A stretch of 61,029 nucleotides of DNA from a virus: IMG/VR virus record IMGVR_UViG_3300027985_000418, positions 1 through 61,029 of that record. The stretch is one strand, 5' to 3'. The notes under the pieces are model-generated. The model did not search any database and was not told the origin of the DNA. It worked only from the letters and a program-made list of their open reading frames with translations. This document shows positions 33,145 through 55,801 of the stretch, in pieces. A program made the translations under genes and the position numbers. Within the stretch, counting starts at the first letter, position 1; the number at the start of each line of letters is the position of its first letter.

Positions 33145-34323
33145 ATGAGAGATAATCAAAGCAGAGGTAAGGTAACAGTAGTTTTAGATTCTCAAGCAGG
33201 TTCGTGTGGCAAGGGTAAATTTATAGGATATTTAGCCACACATGACAATATTGATATTGCTATGAACAATTTTATGTCAAATGCAGGTCATACAATGGTG
33301 ACTAATGATGGTAATAAAATCATGACACAGCATCTGCCAACATCACTAGCAGATCCAAACATTTTCTTATTAATAGGTCCAGGTTCAGCTATTACACCAA
33401 ATATCCTATTTGATGAAATACTTAAATTCTGTGATTTGCTTGATGATAGAAGAATTGTAATTCATCCAAGAGCAAATGTAATCCTCCCTAAACATTCAGA
33501 AATTGAAAGACAAACTATAAGATCTGGATCAACATTTAAGGGTTGTGGTGCGGCATGTGCAGATAAGGTTATGAGGACTGCAATATTATTTGGCGAATGG
33601 TTTAAAAATACTGATTGGTCAAATATGCTGAACACTAAAGGTGAGAAATACTCACAAGAAGATATTTCGTACATTTATGATACAATTGATATTGAAGACA
33701 CAATGCCAATAATCAATCAATATATTGATTGTAATTATAATGTTCTAATTGAGGGATCACAAGGATGTGATCTTGATATCAATTATGGATTGGGGTATCC
33801 ACACACAACAAGTCGGCAATGTCATGCAGGACAGCTGATAGCTGATTGTGGTATATCGCCAAAGCTTGTTGATGAAATCATTATGATAATGCGACCATAT
33901 CCAATCCGTATCAGTAATGAGACAAATATTGGTATTAATATATCAAGTGGTGATTATGATGGTGCTGATGAAATATCATGGGATATCGTTAAAGAAAGAT
34001 GTGGTGCACCTGCTGAAATGGACTTCGGTGAAATGACTACTGTTACAAAGAAACAACGTAGGGTATTTGAAATGAATTGGAGTAGACTCGAGTATGTAAC
34101 TATGCTAAACAGACCAACGCAGATTGCATTAAATTTCGTACAATACATTGATTTCAATGCATATGGTTGTACGTCTTATGATCAATTATCACAAAAGGTA
34201 ATTGATTTTATTAATAAGGTTGAGGATGTTACTGGAGTACCAGTTACATTGATTGGTACTGGTGAGAGAAATGATCAGATTATTGATCTGAGAGATATTA
34301 AAATTGGAGGTAAAAACAAATGA
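33145..34323 (+). CDS. purZ: Adenylosuccinate synthetase homologue, PurZ type
   Basis: 392 aa. Clear PurA superfamily features: P-loop-like 'QAGSCGKGKF' (18-26), 'SNAGHTMV' with His49, 'IEGSQGCDLDINYG' (202-215), 'TTSRQC', and 'TGVPVTLIGTGERNDQIIDL' at the end. In PurA the first motif is QWGDEGKGK with a catalytic Asp; here it is QAGSCGKGK, so Asp is replaced by Ser20. That Asp-to-Ser change marks phage PurZ, which condenses dGMP with aspartate toward dZMP, the 2-aminoadenine nucleotide. AAAGGAGTGAGATT precedes the ATG. It sits among replication and dNTP genes and overlaps the next gene by 4 bases. Confidence 0.85.
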   Translation: MRDNQSRGKVTVVLDSQAGSCGKGKFIGYLATHDNIDIAMNNFMSNAGHTMVTNDGNKIMTQHLPTSLADPNIFLLIGPGSAITPNILFDEILKFCDLLDDRRIVIHPRANVILPKHSEIERQTIRSGSTFKGCGAACADKVMRTAILFGEWFKNTDWSNMLNTKGEKYSQEDISYIYDTIDIEDTMPIINQYIDCNYNVLIEGSQGCDLDINYGLGYPHTTSRQCHAGQLIADCGISPKLVDEIIMIMRPYPIRISNETNIGINISSGDYDGADEISWDIVKERCGAPAEMDFGEMTTVTKKQRRVFEMNWSRLEYVTMLNRPTQIALNFVQYIDFNAYGCTSYDQLSQKVIDFINKVEDVTGVPVTLIGTGERNDQIIDLRDIKIGGKNK

Positions 34324-38720: not shown

Positions 38721-39650
38721 ATGAAAATTATAGAACAGGGTTATGAGATTCTTAAACCTAAAGGGGTATTACAACACATTGAACAAATTGGGAGAGTGTG
38801 TTATAAAAGTGAAGATAAAATTACAGAAGGTTCTGCATCTAAATTTGTAAATATGCTATTCAATAATGGACATTATGCAATGTTGGAACACTACAGATTT
38901 ATTATCCAAATCCCACGTGAATTATATAAAAACATAATATGGTATAATCCACATTATATTACTATGACATTCGATAATTCAAGGTCTAGATTCATTATCT
39001 CATTCTCAGCAAGAGGTATATATGAATTATATTTAACTATCAATCGTTTCGGTGATGACTATGAAACACTTTACCAAATTTCAGACATTATTTATCAAAT
39101 TTGTGAAAAACATAATTGTCATGAGATGTTTGGTAATAAATGGATTAATGTATATAATGCAGATAATGAAAAATATAATGAGATTGAAGTTACTGATATG
39201 TCAGATTATGAGAAATTGCATCATAATTGGATGTCTGTCAAATTTATTACTGATCGTGGTATATCACATGAGTTAGTAAGACATCGTGATGCATCATTTG
39301 CACAAGAATCTACAAGATATTGTGATTATTCAGCAGATGGGTGTACATATATTAAACCGTCATATTGGAAAGATGGATCTCAATTAATGTTAAATCTTGA
39401 AGTACAATGCCAAATGGACGAAGAAATGTATAATAAAATGAAAGTATTAGGTGCTGTACCACAAGAACGTAGGGCAGTATTAAATAATGCAATTAAAACA
39501 GAAATTGTTGTTACTGCTACGGAAAATGAATGGAATCATATATTTGATCTACGAGCAATTGGTACAACTGGATCTCCACACCCACAAATGAAAGCTTTGA
39601 TGTTACCATTATATGAAGAGTGTATGTTGCATAATGGCTGTATTAGATAA
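38721..39650 (+). CDS. thyX: Flavin-dependent thymidylate synthase
   Basis: 309 aa. The ThyX signature is 'RHRDASFAQESTRY' (187-200; consensus RHR-x5-S-x-R with a variant middle). The early 'ARVCYKSED'-like segment and 'MLEHYRF' are also typical. ThyX converts dUMP to dTMP using FAD and folate and is common in anaerobes and phages. With dUTPase and NrdD it supplies dNTPs. AAGGAGGAATTGTA precedes the ATG. Confidence 0.92.
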   Translation: MKIIEQGYEILKPKGVLQHIEQIGRVCYKSEDKITEGSASKFVNMLFNNGHYAMLEHYRFIIQIPRELYKNIIWYNPHYITMTFDNSRSRFIISFSARGIYELYLTINRFGDDYETLYQISDIIYQICEKHNCHEMFGNKWINVYNADNEKYNEIEVTDMSDYEKLHHNWMSVKFITDRGISHELVRHRDASFAQESTRYCDYSADGCTYIKPSYWKDGSQLMLNLEVQCQMDEEMYNKMKVLGAVPQERRAVLNNAIKTEIVVTATENEWNHIFDLRAIGTTGSPHPQMKALMLPLYEECMLHNGCIR

Positions 39651-44373: not shown

Positions 44374-44913
44374 ATGAAAACATGTATCGTAATGACTGGT
44401 TATCCATGTAGTGGTAAATCGGCAATAGGCAAAAGTGTAGCATTGTTACTCAAAATACCATATATATCATCTGGTGATATTGCAAGACAAATGGCTGAGG
44501 AAGAAATAAATGCAGATGTAAATACAGCATTAAAGAATGGTATGATGGCAACGGAAGACAAAATGAGATCGAGAATGTATGAAATATTAAAAGAAACCAT
44601 TAAACACAATAAAATATTTATATTAGATGGTTTCCCACGATTTGATGATCAAAGATTGTGGATAGAAAAGCAATTTGATATTAATTATGTATATATTGAC
44701 ATACAGGCACGTCTAGACAATATTCTAGCTAGAGCAAAATCTAGATGCAGACAAGACGATGATAAATCTATATTAATAAGACGTATAGAATGGTATGAAG
44801 AAAATACTATGCCAATGCTTAAACAAATAAATCCAATTGTAATATCTGGCGATGCGTCAATTGAAGATGCATCAAATGAATTGATTCGCATAATATCGGA
44901 GGTCATATTATAA
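44374..44913 (+). CDS. Adenylate-kinase-like nucleotide kinase
   Basis: 179 aa. P-loop 'MTGYPCSGKSAIGKS' (7-21), 'ISSGDIARQMAEEE' (NMP-binding), 'IFILDGFPRFDDQ' (the DGFPR motif) and 'RAKSRCRQDDDKSILIRRIEWYEENTMP' (LID/Arg region). It is the best candidate for phosphorylating dAMP or dZMP to the diphosphate. AGGAGGGATAATT precedes the ATG. The stop overlaps the nrdG start. Confidence 0.82.
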   Translation: MKTCIVMTGYPCSGKSAIGKSVALLLKIPYISSGDIARQMAEEEINADVNTALKNGMMATEDKMRSRMYEILKETIKHNKIFILDGFPRFDDQRLWIEKQFDINYVYIDIQARLDNILARAKSRCRQDDDKSILIRRIEWYEENTMPMLKQINPIVISGDASIEDASNELIRIISEVIL

Positions 44914-45398
44914 TGTTGGATTATACAATGTGGGTAGAATCAGTAGATCGATATGATTTTATTAATAATCCAACTGATGAAACACCATCTATTACAATAT
45001 GGTTTAGTGGTTGCACATTTAATTGTCCTGGATGTCACAATTATAGACTACAGAATAGAAATGAGGACCAACAAATTTCAGTAAATAGATTATTAAGTCA
45101 AGTAATAGAATATGCACAAAATGTTAAATCTATTGTATTACTTGGTGGTGAACCATTACAACAACCAAATATTATATTATTCCTAACAAAATTAAGGGAG
45201 ATATTAGGACATGGATATAAAATATGGTTATATACTGGTTATGAATTTGCTGATATACCAATCCCAATATTAAATTTAGTAGATATTGTTAAATGTGGTA
45301 AATTTGACAATACAAAATTAACTGGTGGTTTCCCATCATCATCCAATCAACAATTATGGAAATATACTACTGGATGGGATAAATTTACAATAAATTGA
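44913..45398 (+). CDS. nrdG: Anaerobic ribonucleotide reductase activating enzyme
   Basis: 161 aa radical-SAM activase. 'WFSGCTFNCPGCHN' gives the C-x3-C-x2-C iron-sulfur motif, then 'IVLLGGEPLQQPN' (GGE for SAM). It makes the glycyl radical on NrdD. The start overlaps the kinase stop after GGAGGTCATATTATA. It works only without oxygen, so the host is an anaerobe or the phage replicates under anoxia. Confidence 0.92.
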   Translation: MLDYTMWVESVDRYDFINNPTDETPSITIWFSGCTFNCPGCHNYRLQNRNEDQQISVNRLLSQVIEYAQNVKSIVLLGGEPLQQPNIILFLTKLREILGHGYKIWLYTGYEFADIPIPILNLVDIVKCGKFDNTKLTGGFPSSSNQQLWKYTTGWDKFTIN

Positions 45399-45416
45399 TT
45401 ATGGGAGTTGACATCT

Positions 45417-47372
45417 ATGAAAATAGGTATGAATTTAATTAAGGAATTTGAAGACCTGTATGATAGTTTTATCCAATCTGATAAAGGGTTGGAATTATTA
45501 AAAATCGAGGGCATTGCACCATCAGATTTAGATATTGGTATTCTAAGTCACAATTTCTTCGATAATAAGTTATCAGATATTGCAACAGATTCTAATTCAA
45601 ATGCAAATGAAGATATATCTCCAACAAGCTATCGTACATATACAACAAATGGTCAAATGAAATTACTTGGATATCATTTATTATGGTATTATGCTAATAG
45701 GAGATTTGGTCTAGAGTGGGCAAACCAAGCAATAACTGCTATATGGAGTGGTGATTTATATTTCCATGATGCACATGGTGTGAAGATCCAGATGCCATAC
45801 TGTTATGCGTTTAGTTTAGATAAACTGGTATTTGAGGGTAGACCTTATGGATCATCGCCAAATACACCACCTAAAAACAGAAAATCATTCTTATCACAAG
45901 TTGATAAGTTAATATCAGATTTGAGCAAACAATTTGCAGGTGCTACTGCACCGAGTGATTTCTTCCTATGGTATGCATATTATTGTAAACTGGAACATAT
46001 TGATATTGACACAGAAATCGGTAAACATACTGTGGTACAGGATATGCAGGGAATTGTTTGTTTATTTAATGAATCGAATCGTTCTGAGGGAGAACCACCA
46101 TTTACAAATTTGTCAATGTATGACTCTACAGGATTACATTCATTGTTTGGTCATATTGTATATCCAGACCATACAACACCAGATTTAGATTATATAATGA
46201 AATTACAAAATATATTCTGCGAATGGTTTAGTCATGGTGATCCTATTAGTGGATTCCCATATAAATTCCCAGTTGTAACCCAAAATTTAACTATTGATGA
46301 AAATCGAAATTTTGTAAATGAAAATGATGCCATGAATGTTGCAAGATTTAATTTGGAGAAGGGTAATTTTAATCTACATTTTGGTAAAAAGAATAAGATT
46401 GCTATGTGCTGTAGATATGAAAATGATCTTGATGACATGGAAATGACACCAGATTCATTTGGTAATGGTGGTGTTAATATCGGTTCTCATAGAGTCGCAA
46501 CACCAAATTATGGTAGAGCGGCATTATTAGCAAATAAGGATATTACGAAATTTATTGAAATTCTTGATGATTATTTTGATATTTGTGCAAAATTATTATA
46601 TATCCATCGTGTTGATATCCTACAAGGCAGGATTAACAAAAATCCACAATACCTCAAATTCTTTGGAAGTCTTGGATGGTTTGATTTGAATACAATGTTT
46701 AGTACATTTGGTGTTGTCGGTATATATGAAGCAATATCATTTTTAGGCTATGATATACTTGAAGACGATGGTACTGATCTTGGTATGGATATCATGCAAT
46801 ATATCAAGTCTAAAGTTAAACAATATAGAAACGAATATGGCTTTGTGTTTAATGCAGAGGAAATTCCAGGTGAGCAAGCTTGTGTATCATTATTGAATAA
46901 GGACAAGATCATAATAGATAAATCAACATTATCTAGTGATGTTGTTAGATTATTTGATGAATGCTATTTGTACTCAAATCAATATATACCATTAATAAAT
47001 AAAGCAGATATATTAACAAGAATTGATATATCTGGTAGATTCATGAATATGATATCTGGTGGTGGTATAGTACATGCAAATGTTGAAGCACCTATAGATA
47101 CTGTCGGCAAAATGTATGAATTAATGAAATTTACTGCTAAAAGTGGTGTACCACATATGGCTGTGTGTTATCGATTTGGTAGATGTAAATATCATAAGGC
47201 TACGATTATTGGACAAGATACGAAAGTATGTCCAATATGTGGAGAACCAATTGTACATACTAGGGCGAGAGTTATTGGATACTTTAGCGATGAGCATAAC
47301 TGGCATCCAGTAAGACAAGTTTACGATGCACCAAACCGTCACTATACAAAAAATGAACAAATAAACATCTAG
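45417..47372 (+). CDS. nrdD: Class III anaerobic ribonucleoside-triphosphate reductase
   Basis: 651 aa from ATG 45417 after GGGAG; a TTG at 45408 is in frame. 'DGQMKLLGYHLLWYY'-like start, 'SGDLYFHDAHGVKIQMPYC', 'MCCRYENDLDDME', 'GGVNIGSHRVATPNYGR' and 'LGWFDLNTMFSTFGVVGIYEA' match NrdD. The C-terminal zinc cysteines 'GRCKYH...VCPICGEPI' are followed by 'RARVIGYFSD', the glycyl-radical loop (R-V-x-G-Y). It reduces NTPs to dNTPs with formate and supplies DNA precursors. Confidence 0.92.
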   Translation: MKIGMNLIKEFEDLYDSFIQSDKGLELLKIEGIAPSDLDIGILSHNFFDNKLSDIATDSNSNANEDISPTSYRTYTTNGQMKLLGYHLLWYYANRRFGLEWANQAITAIWSGDLYFHDAHGVKIQMPYCYAFSLDKLVFEGRPYGSSPNTPPKNRKSFLSQVDKLISDLSKQFAGATAPSDFFLWYAYYCKLEHIDIDTEIGKHTVVQDMQGIVCLFNESNRSEGEPPFTNLSMYDSTGLHSLFGHIVYPDHTTPDLDYIMKLQNIFCEWFSHGDPISGFPYKFPVVTQNLTIDENRNFVNENDAMNVARFNLEKGNFNLHFGKKNKIAMCCRYENDLDDMEMTPDSFGNGGVNIGSHRVATPNYGRAALLANKDITKFIEILDDYFDICAKLLYIHRVDILQGRINKNPQYLKFFGSLGWFDLNTMFSTFGVVGIYEAISFLGYDILEDDGTDLGMDIMQYIKSKVKQYRNEYGFVFNAEEIPGEQACVSLLNKDKIIIDKSTLSSDVVRLFDECYLYSNQYIPLINKADILTRIDISGRFMNMISGGGIVHANVEAPIDTVGKMYELMKFTAKSGVPHMAVCYRFGRCKYHKATIIGQDTKVCPICGEPIVHTRARVIGYFSDEHNWHPVRQVYDAPNRHYTKNEQINI

Positions 47373-47386
47373 GAGGAATAAACAAA

Positions 47387-47935
47387 ATGAAGCAGTTACA
47401 GGTATTACGTAGTGAGATGGCTAAGGAATTCCCATTAATAGCAATCGCAAAAGATGGTGATGTTGGTATGGATTTATTTGCGTGTTTGCCATTAAAAGAA
47501 AATCATGAGCAATTACTTAAGGATTATTATGATGAATGTGGTCGCAAGGATGAAAAACCCTGTAGTATGGATTCACAATTTATCAAGGAATTAATTCATG
47601 AAACAATTACAATTATGCCAGGCGAAAGGGGTGTAATTCCAACAGGGATTAGATTAGGGTTACCATCAGATCGTTGGGCATCAATTGAAGCAAGAAGTAG
47701 TACATCAAAGAAAATGTTGGTAGTACCTAAAGGAGTTATTGACCAAGGATATCGTGGAGAATTATTTGCTGTCATATTGAACCTTGGGACAAATCCAGTA
47801 ACAATTTATCATGGCGACAGATATGTACAATTAATTCTGCATAAACGTGAGATTGCAGACATCGAAGTTATAGAGGTTGATAAATTATCAGAAACAGAAC
47901 GTGGAGATAGTGGTTTCGGATCAACTGGAAGATAG
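47387..47935 (+). CDS. dut: dUTPase
   Basis: 182 aa trimeric dUTPase. Motif 1 'DGDVGMDLFA', motif 2 'ARSSTSKKM', motif 3 'GVIDQGYRGEL', motif 4 'GDRYVQLIL' and the C-terminal motif 5 'RGDSGFGSTGR' are present. A 50-residue insertion (about 33-65) lengthens it over the usual 145 aa. It keeps uracil out of phage DNA and makes dUMP for ThyX. AGGAGGAATAAACAAA precedes the ATG. Confidence 0.92.
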   Translation: MKQLQVLRSEMAKEFPLIAIAKDGDVGMDLFACLPLKENHEQLLKDYYDECGRKDEKPCSMDSQFIKELIHETITIMPGERGVIPTGIRLGLPSDRWASIEARSSTSKKMLVVPKGVIDQGYRGELFAVILNLGTNPVTIYHGDRYVQLILHKREIADIEVIEVDKLSETERGDSGFGSTGR

Positions 47936-47945
47936 GTGATATAAT

Positions 47946-48695
47946 ATGGGTAGACTACAAGCAGGTGAAAATCCAAAAATAGACATGATCAATGCTTTAG
48001 TTGCCGATATAAAGTCATATAGTAGTACAAGCAAGGAGAGTATGACTGCTCTCCTTGATTTGTTTCATCCAATGTTATTAAATATATGTAGTAGATGGAG
48101 CAGGCATTTTGCTGATGATACACATACATTAATAAGATTTGACGAATTACTATCTGATGCACAATATTGGTTTATGAAATATACTATGGAGACATATACA
48201 ATAAATGGTTCGGCAGCATATAATAAATTTATTAAAGATCATATGACACAACGTATTAGATATATCTATGAATGCAAAATAAAATATTACAAGAATAACA
48301 TATTTCCAGATCCTAATAAACAAACAGATAATGATAATGATGATGATATGTTAGAAAATGTTACATATAAATATAAATCAGATCATGGTATTACTATTGA
48401 AGACGAGTATGAAGATAATTATACACAATATAGTAGAAATGAATTGGCAAATCAAATATTAACAATAGTGTCTGATACCAATAATTTTAATGATCGTGAT
48501 AGTCTTATATTTATCAGCATAGTATATAAAGGCAAAACACATGATGAAATTGCTAAACAATTAGATATATCACGTACTAGGGTTACACAGATTTTAAAAA
48601 GAGTTAAAGGCAGATTATATAAACTTTTAGAAAACAATCAAGATATCTGGACATTAATTAATTGTACAGATATTACATTTAATGAACAGGAGTGA
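47946..48695 (+). CDS. Sigma-factor-like transcription protein
   Basis: 249 aa. 'RFDELLSDAQYWFMKYTMETYTINGSAAYNKFIKDHMTQRIRYIYE' resembles sigma region 2 of phage and sporulation-type factors. 'GKTHDEIAKQLDISRTRVTQILKRVKGRLYKLL' is a clear region 4 helix-turn-helix. An acidic linker sits between them. It may turn on the late minus-strand operon. It is the second sigma-like gene in the window, after 29277. Confidence 0.75.
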   Translation: MGRLQAGENPKIDMINALVADIKSYSSTSKESMTALLDLFHPMLLNICSRWSRHFADDTHTLIRFDELLSDAQYWFMKYTMETYTINGSAAYNKFIKDHMTQRIRYIYECKIKYYKNNIFPDPNKQTDNDNDDDMLENVTYKYKSDHGITIEDEYEDNYTQYSRNELANQILTIVSDTNNFNDRDSLIFISIVYKGKTHDEIAKQLDISRTRVTQILKRVKGRLYKLLENNQDIWTLINCTDITFNEQE

Positions 48696-48706
48696 TGTCA
48701 TAATGA

Positions 48707-49018
48707 ATGATGTGTATGTGTCCACTTTATAGCTATGAATTTTGTTGTCCAATAGACAAAGATTGGGAGAATTGTAAGGTGAATAAATCACTAAATAACA
48801 ATAATAATGAGAATGTGAGGATACAGATAATGAATAATATGGAAATCAAAGAAGTATGGGATGGTCTGAGGGATTTGTGCGAGAATGGTACTACACATGA
48901 AATAAGAGAAATCGCTAGAAAAAGTCTAAATTTAATAACAGATATGTCTGCACAATCTGAGAGATTATGCAATCAAATTGTTAGACTAACTGGCATAGAT
49001 GTAAATAAGGGGTGTTGA
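48707..49018 (+). CDS. Hypothetical small protein before the polymerase genes
   Basis: 103 aa from ATG 48707 (or 48710), but no site sits at the right distance. ATG 48830 ('MNNMEIKEVWDGL', 62 aa) has AGGA eight bases upstream and may be the real start. The N-terminal part has 'CPLYSYEFCCPIDKDWENC', a Cys pattern. The C-terminal part is helical. A 9-codon frame (48703-48732) after AGGAG also exists. Not recognised. Confidence 0.5.
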   Translation: MMCMCPLYSYEFCCPIDKDWENCKVNKSLNNNNNENVRIQIMNNMEIKEVWDGLRDLCENGTTHEIREIARKSLNLITDMSAQSERLCNQIVRLTGIDVNKGC

Positions 49019-49022
49019 AATA

Positions 49023-49949
49023 ATGCCAAAGATTACATATACTGATCTTCATATTCACTCAGAATTTAGCCTTCAAGACGGTATGATTAAAATTGCTGAT
49101 GATGATGATCCAAAGCATATTAAAACCGAATTAATTGAAATAGTTGAAAAACGTGGTACAGGTGCAGTAACTATTACAGACCATGGTAATATGTATGGAC
49201 ATGCAAGTTTGGCTTCAGTATGTCGCACATTTGGATTAAAACATATTCCAGGATGTGAATTCTATATAGCAACAGATTCTAGACATGATAAATCATATAC
49301 AAAACGTAGCGATAGTTATATGCATATCAATGCATGGGCAAAAAATAAGATTGGTTATGCTAATATGTGTAGATTGCAAAAAATATCATTCAATGAGGGT
49401 TTCTATTATGTGCCACGTATAGATAAAGAATTAATAGAAAAATATCATGATGAAATAATGTGGTCTGATGCTTGTATTGGTGGTACAATTTGTTCACATA
49501 TAATGACAGGTAATATCGATAAGGCATATGAAGAATTTATGTGGTATTTAAATCTATTAAGAGATGATTTCTATATAGAGTATCATAATCATCATATTGA
49601 TGATGAGGATGTGTGCAACAAATACAAAGTAGAATGGGCAAATAAACATGGTGTACCAATTATTGCATGTACCGATTCGCACTTTGTAAGAAAAGATGAT
49701 ATTGATGCACACAAAGCATTATTATGTATACAATATGGTAAGGTATATGATGATCCGACATTCAATGGGTTTCCTGGCGATGGATATTGGTTGATGAATG
49801 AGAATGAATTAATTGAAAGATTCCCAATTGAATATCTCAATAATACACAATTAATTGTTAATAAAGTTGATAATGGAATTATTGAATTTGGTGATATTAG
49901 ACCACCACAATTCAAAATTCCACAATGGTTTAAGGAGGAATTAAAATGA
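49023..49949 (+). CDS. dnaE: DNA polymerase III alpha, PHP-domain subunit (split)
   Basis: 308 aa matching only the N-terminal PHP domain of DnaE: 'YTDLHIHSEFSLQDGM', 'GAVTITDHGNMYG', 'PGCEFYIA', 'WYLNLLRDDFYIEYHNH' and 'PIIACTDSHFVRKDD'. Metal-binding His and Asp of PHP are kept (H10, H12; DH in TDHG; DSH). It ends at 'IPQWFKEELK', just where the thumb/palm of a normal DnaE begins. The polymerase core is encoded separately at 50760. It is probably the proofreading or structural half of a two-subunit enzyme. Confidence 0.85.
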   Translation: MPKITYTDLHIHSEFSLQDGMIKIADDDDPKHIKTELIEIVEKRGTGAVTITDHGNMYGHASLASVCRTFGLKHIPGCEFYIATDSRHDKSYTKRSDSYMHINAWAKNKIGYANMCRLQKISFNEGFYYVPRIDKELIEKYHDEIMWSDACIGGTICSHIMTGNIDKAYEEFMWYLNLLRDDFYIEYHNHHIDDEDVCNKYKVEWANKHGVPIIACTDSHFVRKDDIDAHKALLCIQYGKVYDDPTFNGFPGDGYWLMNENELIERFPIEYLNNTQLIVNKVDNGIIEFGDIRPPQFKIPQWFKEELK

Positions 49950-50095
49950 TAACAGAAAATCAAAAGCAATATATTCTAGGTCTATATAAGGATTTAGATA
50001 TGGAATGTGAAACATATTTAGATGGGTTAACAAAATCACAGGCAAGCGATTTAATACAAGAATTAATCGCATTAAAGGAGGAACAAGATGGATAA
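49946..50095 (+). CDS. Small DUF3072-like protein (49 aa)
   Basis: ATG 49946 overlaps the PHP gene stop by four bases (ATGA), with AAGGAGGAATTAAA upstream. 'ITENQKQYILGLYKDLDMECETYLDGLTKSQASDLIQELIAL' follows the pattern of small DUF3072-type proteins (Q-x2-Y-I-x2-L ... L-T-K-x-x-A-x-x-L-I). Function unknown. First gene of the insertion between the polymerase halves. Confidence 0.6.
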   Translation: MITENQKQYILGLYKDLDMECETYLDGLTKSQASDLIQELIALKEEQDG

Positions 50096-50301
50096 ATTAA
50101 AATTAAGATCTTGTACATTCAAAGTCTTTGATGATACATCACTTGAATGGGTAGAAAGGATGGCTATTTTCACCAATGGGTTCTTCATACGAAGAATTTA
50201 ATGTTATCGATAGTGTAATGCAAATAACGGTTGCAATTATCGAAGATACGACAGGTCAAATATATAAAGTAATACCATTATATATTAAATTTATAAATTA
50301 G
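50088..50301 (+). pseudogene. Frameshifted small gene (two overlapping frames)
   Basis: Frame 1 runs from ATG 50088 (AAAGGAGGAACAAG site) to TAA 50199-50201 (37 aa) and ends '...TNGFFIRRI'. Frame 2 runs from ATG 50176 to TAG 50299-50301 (41 aa): 'MGSSYEEFNVIDSVMQITVAIIEDTTGQIYKVIP...'. Related small phage proteins read G-F/L-F-H-x-W-G...Y-E-E-F...V-A-I-V-E...G in one frame. This looks like a deletion that removed the H-x-W bases and shifted frame, possibly between short direct repeats. Alternatively two short genes overlap. Confidence 0.5.
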
Positions 50302-50310
50302 GAGGTTACT

Positions 50311-50676
50311 ATGAGTATTATTAAGGATTTATTAAATAAGAAAAAAGAAGTCGGTGGTTATAATATAACTGTTAATGATGCATCTGATAATCTAATAAAT
50401 GAAACATTCACAACAAATAAATGGAGTCATAGTTGGTTAGCACAAGTGTCTAAGCAACATAATTTTGTCATTAATGACGATATGAAAAAAGTTAATGGTG
50501 TATTAGATGCACTTAATCGTAAATCTGGACAATGTCCATGTGGGGGTACTGGTGAACAATTTAAATGTCCATGTACAATTATGAGAGAACATGGGATATG
50601 TAAGTGTGGTCTTTTTAAAAGTATACCAAATAGACCTATTACAGGCAGATCCGATACTCCACAAATAATAAAATAA
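50311..50676 (+). CDS. Ferredoxin-thioredoxin-reductase catalytic-like protein
   Basis: 121 aa. The C-terminal half has 'GQCPCGGTGEQFKCPCTIMREHGICKCGLF', given here as the pattern C-P-C ... C-P-C ... C-x-C-G-L-F. This is the Fe-S and redox cysteine layout of the FTR catalytic subunit. The N-terminal 60 residues are helical. It may use electrons from host ferredoxin to reduce disulfides or thioredoxin. It lies inside the insertion between the PHP and polymerase genes. TTAGGAGGTTACT is the ribosome site. Confidence 0.7.
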   Translation: MSIIKDLLNKKKEVGGYNITVNDASDNLINETFTTNKWSHSWLAQVSKQHNFVINDDMKKVNGVLDALNRKSGQCPCGGTGEQFKCPCTIMREHGICKCGLFKSIPNRPITGRSDTPQIIK

Positions 50677-50694
50677 ATCAATAATAATTATTTT

Positions 50695-50719
50695 ATAGAT
50701 CACTTAATGTGGTCTATAT
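50695..50719 (+). terminator. Hairpin before the polymerase gene
   Basis: ATAGATCAC - TTAAT - GTGGTCTAT, 9-bp stem with one wobble, followed by ATTTATG. Only a short T-rich end, so a weak terminator or leader structure about 40 bases before the polymerase start. Confidence 0.55.
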
Positions 50720-50759
50720 TTATGTTAGGAAATTCAATAAATCTATTAGGAGGTATACA

Positions 50760-53699
50760 ATGGAAAAGAGTATGTCGGAACAATATCTATGGAGATTAAT
50801 ACATGATGGCTTATATAAATTGTATGGTGATAATATACCACAAGAAGTTATTGATCGCATTAATATTGAAATGGATGTAATCGTTCCAAACAAATTTGAT
50901 GATTATATCCTAGTTATATGGGATATACATGATTTCTGCAAAACACCATCAAGGGTATTTGAATTCTGTGAGAGAAAAGGAATTACACCACCACCAGATG
51001 GTATTATACCATTAGGTCCAGGCAGAGGATCTGTGGGCGGATCATATGTATGTTATTGTATTGGTATCCATGAATGTGATCCGTTATTATTTGGTCTTTA
51101 TTTTGAAAGATTCTTAAATCCTGAACGTATTGCATATCCCGATATAGATTTTGATATCAGTCAAAAATATAGACATATAGGATTAGCTTATATTGCAGAC
51201 ACATATGGCGAAGAATACGTATCACAAATCATTACATATGGTACATTATCATTAAAAACGGTAATACATGATGTAATGGTTACTGCATGTATACCAAATT
51301 CTGTTATTAATACTGTGAAAGCAACAATTCCAGATGATCCATCAATTACATTATCTAAAATGTTAGACGATAAAAAATTTATAGATGCATTAAATGCTAT
51401 TGAATTTCCTAATCAAATATTTACCGTCGATGCTTCAAATATACAACGTATTATTAATAATAATAAATTTGAATGCGATGATGATAAAATTAATAAACAT
51501 AATAGGGAAACTATATTAGGTATAATGTCAAAAACAATACAATCTGGCACATTAATTATCAAATCATCATGGAATGTTGACAGATTGATATACGTCATGA
51601 GTAGATTAGAGGGATTATGTAAAAATGAGTCTACGCATGCTGCAGGAGTAGTAGTTGCACCAGTAACTTTGGAAGATAATATACCACTATTTAGAAAAAG
51701 TGGTACTGGTGTATTAGCAAGTCAATATGATATGATATCGCTTGAAGAAATCGGATATCTTAAGATGGATGCACTTGGATTACGTACAGTTGATGTTAAT
51801 CATGAAGCTGAGAGATTGGTGAAGCAATGGTATGATCCACAGTTCTCAATCAGAGATATACGATATGATGATAAGGATACAATTGATCTTATTAATAGTG
51901 GCGATACAATTGGTATATTCCAGATAGAATCAACTGGATTTACTAAAATGATGCAAGACCTTGATATTGGTGGATATGAAACAGAAAGATATGCTGATCG
52001 TAATAATAATCTATTATCACAGGTAGAGAAGATACGTGGATTAGAGGTTAAAGATTTTATGTGGATATCTGCAGGATTAGCATTATATCGCCCTGGACCA
52101 TTAGATGCGATTATTGATGGCAAAACAATGGTACAGCATCTAATAGATCGTAAGTCTGGCAAAGAGCCTATAATCTATCTATTTGACGAAGAAAAAGGAT
52201 ACCTAGAAGAAACATATGGTGTACTAGTATATCAAGAGCAGGTTATGGCGAGAGTTAGACAAATGACAGGATGCTCACTTGGTAGAGCCGATATTTTACG
52301 TAAGGCAATGGGTAAGAAGAATCCTGTGTTAATGAAAGAACAGATGGATTGGTTCGTAGAATCTGCTATGAAACATCAATTTTCTGAAAAAATAATAGTA
52401 AATAAATCCCAAATAGTTGATAGAGCAAAAGAAGAAATAGAAAAATTCGCTAGATATGGATTTAATAAGGCTCATACAGTAGAATACGGACATATATGTT
52501 ATCGTAATGCATACTTCAAAAAACATTATCCTACAGCATTCTATACAGCGATATTAAATTCAGAAAATGGTAATCCAAAAAGACAAACAATATTAATCAG
52601 AGATATGTTGGCACATGATATACAGCTATCTCCACCAGATATTAACAAGTCAGATTTAGAATTTACTATGACAGACATTAATACAATAAGCTTTGGGTTA
52701 TCATCAATTAAGAATATTGGTGGCAGGGCAGTTGGTACAATTATTGATGATAGATCAAAAAATGGTGATTATAAATCATTACATGATTTTCGTATCAGAA
52801 TACCATCAACCGATTGTAATATTACTGGTATTACAAATCTAGCAAAATGTGGTGCATTTGATAATATTTGTATCAATGTTGATGGTGAGTATAGTTTTAA
52901 TAATAGAGCATCATTGGTAGAAACAATACCTGGTATATGTGATATTATTAAGAAATTATCTGCTAAAAAGGGAAAGGACAAACCTAAGCCAACTGTGGCA
53001 GAGGTTAAACAAAAATGGATTAATGGTGGATATAAATATTCAATAATACATGGAGAAGATGATCCTATTCAATATGCATTGTGGGAAAAAGAGATATTAA
53101 CATATTATATTTCTGCACATCCAATAGATAAATATACTGACGAAATACGCAGGTATGGTTCAATAGAAGATACTGAATTGGAAGATCTTCCTAATGAATT
53201 TTATATCGTTGGATTTGTTGAAAGTTGTCATGAAACAGTAATAAAAAAAGAGGGTAGGAACAAAGGCAAGGCAATGGGATTCTTGTCTATTGGTACTGCA
53301 TATAAAATGTATGAAGCTACTATGTTCCCAGGTATTTATGAATCATGTTTACCATATATAAAAACAGGTAATCCAATAGTATTAAAAGGTAAACGTGACA
53401 CTTATCGTGATGTTGTAACAATACAATGTATATATGTTAGAGGTATTACAAATACTGGAGTGAGAGATTGTCCAGAATGTCATTTGAGGATAGATAAATC
53501 TATTACACCTGCCCAAATTATTCAATTAAAATCAATATGTAATGAGCATCCAGGAATGACAAAAATGTTTATACACATATTAGATGGATACAATGATATT
53601 ACAATTGAATGCACACAAACGATAGCATTGAATGATCATATTATTGAATTTGCAGAATCTATTGGACAATTATCATATAAACCGATTCCATTAAAATAA
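50760..53699 (+). CDS. dnaE: DNA polymerase III alpha, polymerase core subunit (split)
   Basis: 979 aa starting at ATG 50760 after TTAGGAGGTATACA. It begins where DnaE continues after PHP ('EQYLWRLIHDGLYKLYG'). Motifs: 'GPGRGSVGGS' (86-95), 'YPDIDFDIS' with candidate catalytic D128/D130, 'YLKMDALGLRT' with D337, 'LYRPGPLD', 'YGVLVYQEQVM', 'GRADILRKAMGKK' and 'GFNKAHTVEYGHICYRNAYFKKHYP'. Helix-hairpin-helix and OB-fold regions follow. It is the phage replicase, with the PHP part encoded separately. Confidence 0.92.
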   Translation: MEKSMSEQYLWRLIHDGLYKLYGDNIPQEVIDRINIEMDVIVPNKFDDYILVIWDIHDFCKTPSRVFEFCERKGITPPPDGIIPLGPGRGSVGGSYVCYCIGIHECDPLLFGLYFERFLNPERIAYPDIDFDISQKYRHIGLAYIADTYGEEYVSQIITYGTLSLKTVIHDVMVTACIPNSVINTVKATIPDDPSITLSKMLDDKKFIDALNAIEFPNQIFTVDASNIQRIINNNKFECDDDKINKHNRETILGIMSKTIQSGTLIIKSSWNVDRLIYVMSRLEGLCKNESTHAAGVVVAPVTLEDNIPLFRKSGTGVLASQYDMISLEEIGYLKMDALGLRTVDVNHEAERLVKQWYDPQFSIRDIRYDDKDTIDLINSGDTIGIFQIESTGFTKMMQDLDIGGYETERYADRNNNLLSQVEKIRGLEVKDFMWISAGLALYRPGPLDAIIDGKTMVQHLIDRKSGKEPIIYLFDEEKGYLEETYGVLVYQEQVMARVRQMTGCSLGRADILRKAMGKKNPVLMKEQMDWFVESAMKHQFSEKIIVNKSQIVDRAKEEIEKFARYGFNKAHTVEYGHICYRNAYFKKHYPTAFYTAILNSENGNPKRQTILIRDMLAHDIQLSPPDINKSDLEFTMTDINTISFGLSSIKNIGGRAVGTIIDDRSKNGDYKSLHDFRIRIPSTDCNITGITNLAKCGAFDNICINVDGEYSFNNRASLVETIPGICDIIKKLSAKKGKDKPKPTVAEVKQKWINGGYKYSIIHGEDDPIQYALWEKEILTYYISAHPIDKYTDEIRRYGSIEDTELEDLPNEFYIVGFVESCHETVIKKEGRNKGKAMGFLSIGTAYKMYEATMFPGIYESCLPYIKTGNPIVLKGKRDTYRDVVTIQCIYVRGITNTGVRDCPECHLRIDKSITPAQIIQLKSICNEHPGMTKMFIHILDGYNDITIECTQTIALNDHIIEFAESIGQLSYKPIPLK

Positions 53700-54670: not shown

Positions 54671-55801
54671 ATGAAAAAGTGCGAACTAACAATATCTAGT
54701 AGTTATGTCCCAAATTGGACAATATTCAATGCTATTAGAGAATTAGTGCAGAATGCATTAGACCAGGAATTTGTTGATGCAAATAATACTATGAATATGC
54801 AATATGATGAAGATAAATGTGAGTTGACGATATCAAATAAGAATTCATCATTAACAACCAATACACTACTGTTTGGATCAACATCCAAAGCGAATGATGA
54901 AAATCAGATTGGTCAATTTGGTGAGGGATATAAAATAGCAACAATGGTGCTATTACGTGAGGGTAAGAATATTACATTCTACAATTATGGTGCTAAAGAA
55001 ATTTGGAAACCACGTATGGTAAAGTCACGCAAATACAATAATGAAAATATATTAACATTCTTCATTGACAATCAATACATATGGAATCATATACCAAATA
55101 ATAATTTATCCATTGTTATATCTGATATCTCTGCAAAAGATTATGATTATATCATAAATTCTGTTATGATTAACAGAGATACGGTCGGTAATAATTTTGT
55201 AAGTACCGAATATGGTGATATTATAACATATGATGGATATGTTGGAGATATCTTTGTTAATGGTCTATTCATAAAACACCTGGATGGGTTAGTATATGGA
55301 TATGACATAAAGCCTAAATATATTAAGATTAATCGTGACAGAACTATGGTTGATTCATTCGATATATTATACAGAACATCATCAATGGTATTATGTACAG
55401 GCAATCATGGTATTATTGACAAGGCATTGGATACTGATGATGGTAAATATATATCATATATGAATTCATTGTCATCAGAAGGTATAACTGAACAGATATG
55501 GGATAATTTTGTTGAACAGTATGGAGATCATGCAATTCCAGTTTCATCACAATATGATGCAGATAAGATTAAGTCATCAAAAATCAAACCAATTATTGTA
55601 TCACAATCAAGAATGTCTATATTAAAATCAAGTACATGCTATGGCAGTATATATCATACATCTTGTGAGGAACAACCATCTATTAAAAATATGTTAAGTG
55701 AATGGTTTAACAAAATTAATCATAGCTATTTAACATTTGATGAAGAAGATGAATTTAATAAAATCCTTAATAAGATATCTGATGAATATACAGGGATATA
55801 A
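54671..55801 (+). CDS. GHKL-fold ATPase (rIIA/Hsp90-like N-terminal domain)
   Basis: 376 aa. 'AIRELVQNALDQ' (about 22-33) is the N-box with E-x2-Q-N-A-x-D, and 'NQIGQFGEGYKIATMVLL' (about 79-96) is the G-box of GHKL ATPases (Hsp90, MutL, histidine kinase, T4 rIIA). The middle 'DIFVNGLFIKHL' and 'KINRDRTMVDSFDI' fit the transducer part of phage rIIA-type proteins. A role in exclusion/anti-defence or membrane lysis control is possible. AAAGGAGAATCAAA precedes the ATG. Confidence 0.7.
   Translation: MKKCELTISSSYVPNWTIFNAIRELVQNALDQEFVDANNTMNMQYDEDKCELTISNKNSSLTTNTLLFGSTSKANDENQIGQFGEGYKIATMVLLREGKNITFYNYGAKEIWKPRMVKSRKYNNENILTFFIDNQYIWNHIPNNNLSIVISDISAKDYDYIINSVMINRDTVGNNFVSTEYGDIITYDGYVGDIFVNGLFIKHLDGLVYGYDIKPKYIKINRDRTMVDSFDILYRTSSMVLCTGNHGIIDKALDTDDGKYISYMNSLSSEGITEQIWDNFVEQYGDHAIPVSSQYDADKIKSSKIKPIIVSQSRMSILKSSTCYGSIYHTSCEEQPSIKNMLSEWFNKINHSYLTFDEEDEFNKILNKISDEYTGI

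Follow-up and report, generated by a model that had tools for sequence, protein, structure and literature searches.

A phage clade in which the PHP domain and the polymerase core of a DnaE-type DNA polymerase are encoded by separate genes

All members of the C family of DNA polymerases are said to hold the PHP, palm, thumb and finger domains in a single polypeptide (PMC3666897), and what the PHP domain does for these enzymes is still debated. A homologue of DNA polymerase III (Pol III) alpha in separate proteins is known from the minimal Pol III of jumbo phages, which is cut within the catalytic module into a nucleoside triphosphate (NTP)-binding and a DNA-binding part, is encoded by genes that lie far apart and contains no other Pol III domain (PMC7824862). 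The intein-split DnaE of cyanobacteria is likewise encoded by two genes, but trans-splicing restores one chain (PMC3919608). Here we analyze a viral stretch of 61,029 nucleotides (IMG/VR record IMGVR_UViG_3300027985_000418, positions 1 to 61,029; hereafter the window), in which a standalone PHP gene (49023..49949, + strand) and a polymerase core gene (50760..53699, + strand) make up a DnaE that is cut between PHP and palm, keeps all domains, in contrast to the jumbo-phage enzyme, and shows no intein. The cut in the intein-split DnaE lies elsewhere. With the single-chain DnaE1 of E. coli, Thermus and M. tuberculosis the locus shares domains, domain order, catalytic residues and metal-binding PHP ligands, whereas DnaE1 is one polypeptide and the window and its relatives have two genes. 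Our literature search returned no report of a PHP-split DnaE in phages, the closest system in the text covered being the jumbo-phage minimal Pol III (PMC7824862); the search extended to freely available papers and not to subscription ones, among them the Science reports of 2021 on Z genomes.

The two products map end to end on single-chain enzymes. In profile searches of solved structures, E. coli Pol III alpha (5fku) was covered from residue 5 to 297 by the PHP protein and from 287 to 1157 by the core, and M. tuberculosis DnaE1 (7pu7) from 9 to 324 and from 315 to 1169; on the family profile PHROG_405 the corresponding positions were 41-341 and 336-1156. The cut therefore falls in the PHP-palm linker and no DnaE segment is missing, which confirms the claim of a preliminary description, made from the sequence of the window, that the two genes meet at adjacent points of DnaE. 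Both open reading frames (ORFs) are separate and intact. The PHP protein of 308 amino acids (aa; Pfam PF02811, expectation value (E) 6e-32) stops 8 residues past the conserved FKIP, and its AlphaFold2 model, with a mean predicted local distance difference test score (pLDDT) of 91.4, finds its best fold match in Pol III alpha (4iqj; template modelling (TM) score 0.85 by query length, 2.4 Å). The core protein of 979 aa comprises palm, thumb, fingers, HhH, OB and the C-terminal region (Pfam DNA_pol3_alpha E 2e-62, finger E 1e-38, HHH_6 E 5e-21), scores 567 bits against TIGR00594 (cut-off 434), which identifies it as DnaE type, and carries catalytic-type acidic residues at D128, D130, D132 and D337. 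Its frame is also open from a GTG at 50709, and an AGGAGG precedes the ATG at 50760. A DnaQ insert of the PolC type is absent from the 308-aa PHP, and the window has no PF00929 match. Palm/NTPase, finger, (HhH)2 and acidic triad, by which a C-family DnaE is recognized, are thus all present in the window, and the only departure is that the four core domains do not share one polypeptide, PHP being encoded by a separate gene.

The active site of the detached PHP is preserved. All nine metal ligands are intact in the window (H10, H12, D19, H54, E79, H101, C151, D218 and H220), so that, together with the acidic residues of the core, the catalytic motifs are as complete as had been supposed. The motif HHDHEH[C/H]DH has been used to call a PHP domain active (PMC12926913), and among loci passing our coverage filter the nine-residue motif HHDHEHCDH was found in 12/12 split PHPs, compared with 88/127 fused ones; the filter dropped L146, L147, L148 and L151, whose PHP frame is only 254 aa (L numbers are our locus handles), and the 127 fused rows include near-duplicates, for example L116-L118, which score like L115. 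Loss of PHP metal ligands is thus frequent among fused phage DnaE, the site not being intact in 39 of the 127.

The same division recurs in other phages. A scan with the core protein returned three IMG/VR contigs (L002-L004; core identity 62-63%), a search with a PHP alignment added L086 (PHP identity 73%), and a search with a clade alignment added L144/L145 (44% identity). The best match to a named phage was Bacillus phage vB_BpsS-140 (L005, MH884512.1), an isolate that infects Bacillus pseudalcaliphilus, which also has two genes and whose polymerase is not discussed in the covered text of the phage's description (PMC6483233); the split was seen in L006 and L007 as well. Ten clade records are thus split at the PHP-palm boundary (the window, L002, L003, L004, L086, L144, L145, L005, L006 and L007), representing nine distinct phages, as L144 equals L145 in both PHP and core. 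A careful maximum-likelihood tree (IQ-TREE; 50 cores, 735 columns), whose bootstrap had not fully settled, recovers a clade, supported at 100/100 and free of fused cores, that consists of the window, L086, L004, L002, L145, L005, L006 and L007, and a quick 105-row tree agrees, holding its 8 split rows together at support 99. The preliminary description had named an unsplit frame in closely related genomes as a refutation; our search for such a relative without the small genes was negative, and 8/8 clade rows of the careful tree are split. Core identity within the clade drops to about 30-35%, and the split is therefore old. Genome contigs scanned with a five-member clade alignment yielded no relative, and thus neither a host nor a prophage, and a scan of viral contigs with the PHP protein alone as query gave nothing useful. 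In almost every other locus that has both parts, PHP and palm share a frame, and in some the polymerase is interrupted at another place. The same junction is split outside the clade in L027, in L110 and in a group of look-alikes (L146/L147/L148/L151); L027, L110 and L147 fall outside the split clade in the careful tree. A single origin of all 11 split rows appeared in 0/200 bootstrap trees yet is compatible with the approximately unbiased (AU) test (p 0.253), and a parsimony count gives 3 changes for the split state.

The two proteins have also diverged together. In the 36 pairs within the split clade, PHP and core identities rise and fall together, for instance 0.73 (PHP) and 0.64 (core) between the window and L086, and 0.39 and 0.35 between the window and L005. 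The fused pairs in this rate comparison include PHPs without an active site, and the contrast of split and fused rates is therefore not clean. In L002/L003, the one informative pair, and with synonymous divergence (dS) near saturation for some genes, the ratio of non-synonymous to synonymous substitution rates (dN/dS) is about 0.04 for PHP, 0.09 for the core, 0.06 for a cysteine protein encoded between them and 0.27 for a 134-aa gene. Because the window holds no recognized RNase_T/DnaQ-type exonuclease family match, the separate PHP is its only recognized candidate for proofreading. A beta-clamp match is likewise missing from the window, and the clamp may be supplied by the host.

The phage probably possesses a C-family (DnaE-type) replicase of two subunits, with PHP as a separate proofreading and scaffolding subunit, and we likewise consider it likely that the split is ancestral to the clade and that the gap genes came later; the earlier suggestion that the split enzyme is probably active in two subunits remains the best reading of these sequences. 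In such a scheme, fission at the interdomain linker in the ancestor of one phage clade would have left a stop/start overlap (ATGA) that kept translation of the two genes coupled, small genes would have been inserted into this junction later in some branches, and the PHP subunit would dock back onto a polymerase subunit that begins exactly at the palm. That PHP rejoins the core is suggested by the conserved gene order, by the co-divergence and by published evidence linking the stability and activity of Pol III to the integrity of PHP (PMC3666897), and the subunit would act as a 3'-5' exonuclease. Several points weigh against this proposal: re-association and activity are read from sequence rather than from a modelled complex; a PHP working independently of the polymerase could show the same co-divergence and the same intact ligands; the splits of L027, L110 and L147 may go back to that of the clade or may have arisen separately; and the direction from fused to split is deduced from the generality of the fused state in the C family, not from a rooted tree.

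The second of these points leads to the strongest alternative, namely that PHP has become uncoupled and now serves as a phosphoesterase or nuclease in its own right, which might process nucleotides or DNA ends, while the core replicates alone. Separate genes, lying up to 1.4 kb apart in the clade, would permit this, and free-enzyme PHP folds do exist, as the matches of our PHP model to 7ug9 and 2yb1 illustrate. However, the window PHP is far nearer to the PHP domains of Pol III alpha than to these free enzymes, its gene precedes that of the core in all clade members seen, the two co-diverge, and Pol III needs an intact PHP for stability and activity (PMC3666897), so that we regard an independent PHP enzyme as unlikely.

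The junction itself bears on the origin of the split. In the window the gap spans 810 bp and holds ORFs of 49, 37, 41 and 121 aa, matching the roughly 800 bases with three or four small genes described before. The first (49946..50095, + strand, 49 aa) starts with an ATG that overlaps the PHP stop as ATGA, has an AGGAGG upstream and shows a weak DUF3072 match (E 9e-4, below the Pfam cut-off); the second (50088..50201, + strand, 37 aa) also has an AGGAGG upstream and matched no Pfam or PHROG family, and the third (50176..50301, + strand, 41 aa) has only a PHROG_11000 match at E 0.003 and is doubtful as a gene. The fourth (50311..50676, + strand, 121 aa) encodes a cysteine protein with the pattern CPC-x8-CPC-x8-CKC, which resembles the catalytic chain of ferredoxin-thioredoxin reductase with its cluster motif CPC..CPC..C[HK]C. 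Its six cysteines are invariant across 5 sequences, while its match to Pfam FeThRed_B (E 0.005) lies below the cut-off and its AlphaFold2 model, with a pLDDT of only 38.5, gives no usable fold. AGGAGG-type sites precede the 49-, 37- and 121-aa ORFs and the core, and an NCBIfam scan of the gap genes gave no useful match.

The occupants of this gap vary between branches. The cysteine protein lies between PHP and core in the window, L086, L002, L003 and L004 and not in L145, L005 or L006, and the gap ORFs of L145 and L007 differ from those of the window. L005 and L006 have no gap gene at all: the PHP stop and the core start overlap by 4 nt as ATGA, and their cores start with MSEQ and MSET, respectively, MSEQ also occurring near the start of the window core. 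The window and L004 carry an ATGA at the PHP stop as well, but there its ATG opens the first gap gene, which is the 49-aa gene in the window and the cysteine protein in L004. As gap genes differ between lineages, the small genes appear to have entered the junction after the split.

These comparisons argue against the idea that the small genes caused the split, i.e. that a mobile or cargo insertion broke a single-chain gene whose halves were both retained. The preliminary description had presented the small genes as an insertion accompanying the split, and gap genes are indeed found in the window, L002-L004, L086, L144/L145 and L007, where the ORF adjoining the core resembles HNH nucleases by eye. 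This ORF, however, has no HNH match in Pfam or NCBIfam, and in L005 and L006 the cut falls at the homologous point with nothing inserted, while elsewhere the inserted genes are different ones; an insertional origin is therefore quite improbable. A homing endonuclease as the cause is ruled out by the same gapless relatives and, as noted earlier from the sequence, neither a homing endonuclease nor an intein was seen in the window gap, here by Pfam and PHROG scans. It is very improbable that the product is still one chain, made by -1 frameshifting at the overlap or by trans-splicing: the core does lie in the -1 frame relative to PHP in L005 and L006, but this offset is the automatic result of any ATGA overlap, no slippery heptamer X_XXY_YYZ is present in either overlap, which rules out a frameshift fusion, and the window has 810 bp with four ORFs between the genes and no intein-type domain in the Pfam and PHROG scans. 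An artefact of sequencing or assembly, or a decaying pseudogene, can hardly be entertained either, although most split records are metagenomic, given open frames, low dN/dS in L002/L003 and nine further records that share the split, drawn from separate metagenomes and, in one case, from an isolate sequenced by PacBio (PMC6483233); these records exclude the sequencing error named at the outset as a possible refutation.

The division may be linked to an unusual genome chemistry. Most or all phages with PurZ are reported to replicate their 2-aminoadenine (Z) DNA with DpoZ, a family A polymerase with a 3'-5' proofreading domain, the exception being S-2L, which uses a PrimPol and relies on DatZ (PMC8775771, PMC12884076, PMC8599892); in the papers covered here, the replicases described for such genomes are family A polymerases and this one PrimPol only (PMC8775771, PMC12884076). 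The window encodes a PurZ-like adenylosuccinate synthetase homologue (33145..34323, + strand) with Ser20 at the position of the PurA catalytic Asp. It matches PHROG_1211 (E 5e-66), labelled '2-aminooxy adenylosuccinate synthetase', and NCBIfam PurZ NF038379 (E 7e-58) at 196 bits, below the cut-off of 300. Homologues by PF00709 occur in 7/13 split records searched (the window, L004, L086, L145, L005, L006 and L007), with none in the clade records L002, L003 and L144 (37-44 kb contigs) or in L027, L110 and L147, which are split and lie outside the clade. Among 36 fused-DnaE records, several of them short fragments (9-30 kb), there was one, in L115, with the PurA-type motif QWGDEGKG. In 6/6 clade genes that include the region (window, L086, L004, L005, L006 and L007) the PurZ-type Ser replaces the PurA Asp of QxGxxGKG, these genes reading QAGS or QVGS, while the gene of L145 is cut by the contig end. 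The solved entry 6fm1, PurZ of phage phiVC8, reads QFGSTGKG at that motif, and the annotators of vB_BpsS-140 note a homologue in Vibrio phage phiVC8.

No family A polymerase (PF00476) was found in the 10 clade records, while the control matched in 10/14. A scan with a PurZ-like alignment returned 11 contigs, 4 of them already known; among the 7 others a family A polymerase is present in 5 (with L198 and L199 seemingly the same phage), the C-family core of L197 is truncated by the contig end, so that split and fused cannot be told apart, and L195 (36 kb) has neither a family A nor a C-family polymerase. A fused Pol III was seen in no PurZ-like record that carries the motif serine. PurZ-like genes in 7/9 distinct split phages versus 1/36 fused records give a Fisher p of 6e-6, a value that ignores shared ancestry; because the clade is one lineage, the association is one evolutionary coincidence, not seven. 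Among possible partners that clear dATP or dGTP, DatZ-type YfbR was found in 0/10 clade records, which weighs against a standard Z pathway, and searches for MazZ/DUF550 (0/10) and DUF5664 (0/11) returned nothing, as did their controls.

With PurZ-like genes and no DpoZ, the clade looks, from its gene content, like 2-aminoadenine phages that use a split Pol III in place of DpoZ, which would suggest a further, C-family, way to copy such genomes. It would resemble S-2L in replicating with PurZ and without DpoZ, and differ in using a C-family enzyme and in the absence of a detected DatZ (PMC8775771). The Z-over-A preference of DpoZ has been proposed to stem from a switch to proofreading mode (PMC8599892). 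Tentatively, and with somewhat less than even confidence, we propose a dedicated C-family replicase for Z DNA, in which the two-subunit Pol III would have replaced DpoZ and the detached PHP exonuclease would help to select Z rather than A, the weaker A:T ends being excised more readily. By analogy with DpoZ, a C-family enzyme in two parts, its exonuclease detached, would be a plausible third solution for Z genomes. Within the literature searched, no report of PurZ with a C-family or DnaE polymerase was found, subscription papers (the 2021 Science Z-genome reports) again being outside the search. Whatever the template, the natural two-gene form allows PHP to be added, removed or mutated without breaking the polymerase chain, and the role of PHP becomes directly testable.

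The PHP and core genes stand in a conserved block. A dUTPase-like gene (47387..47935, + strand; Pfam dUTPase E 1.5e-19) and a sigma-factor-like gene directly upstream (47946..48695, + strand; Sigma70_r4 E 5e-7) precede PHP, and the order dUTPase - (sigma) - PHP - polymerase is kept in the window, L002-L007 and L086. In PurZ0 phages, dATP and dGTP are removed by DutZ, enzymes of the dUTPase family (PMC12884076), and by this analogy the dUTPase-like gene may be regarded as a lead only. Elsewhere in the window, adenylate-kinase-like, NrdG-like and NrdD-like genes lie in a row at 44374-47372, indicating an anaerobic ribonucleotide reductase, and ThyX lies at 38721-39650; the host of this phage is probably an anaerobe. 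The product of the ORF at 54671-55801 resembles sacsin-type ATPases weakly (NF047352, E 2e-6, below the cut-off) and strongly matches PHROG_6077, whose function is not assigned.

Other interruptions of phage DnaE were seen among the surveyed loci. A second recurrent cut lies inside the polymerase at model positions of about 333-349 (L064, 4966-9289; L082, 5296-9350; L140, 3047-6246), nearly the same place in cores of different phages, Mycobacterium phage Fowlmouth among them. In L120 (4474-7074), as in L121 and L123, some 300 residues interrupt PHP, whose two matches in L120 fall at aa 21-162 and 503-675, and the frame stops soon after the start of the palm, possibly owing to an intein or another insert. 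L098 (5926-7476) encodes PHP and the first 70 palm positions, followed by a tail that looks like an intein by eye, and no core was found in the locus. In MH884512.1 (L005), finally, PHP and core at 48891-52495 are unannotated, and the locus tags 00061 and 00062 are missing.

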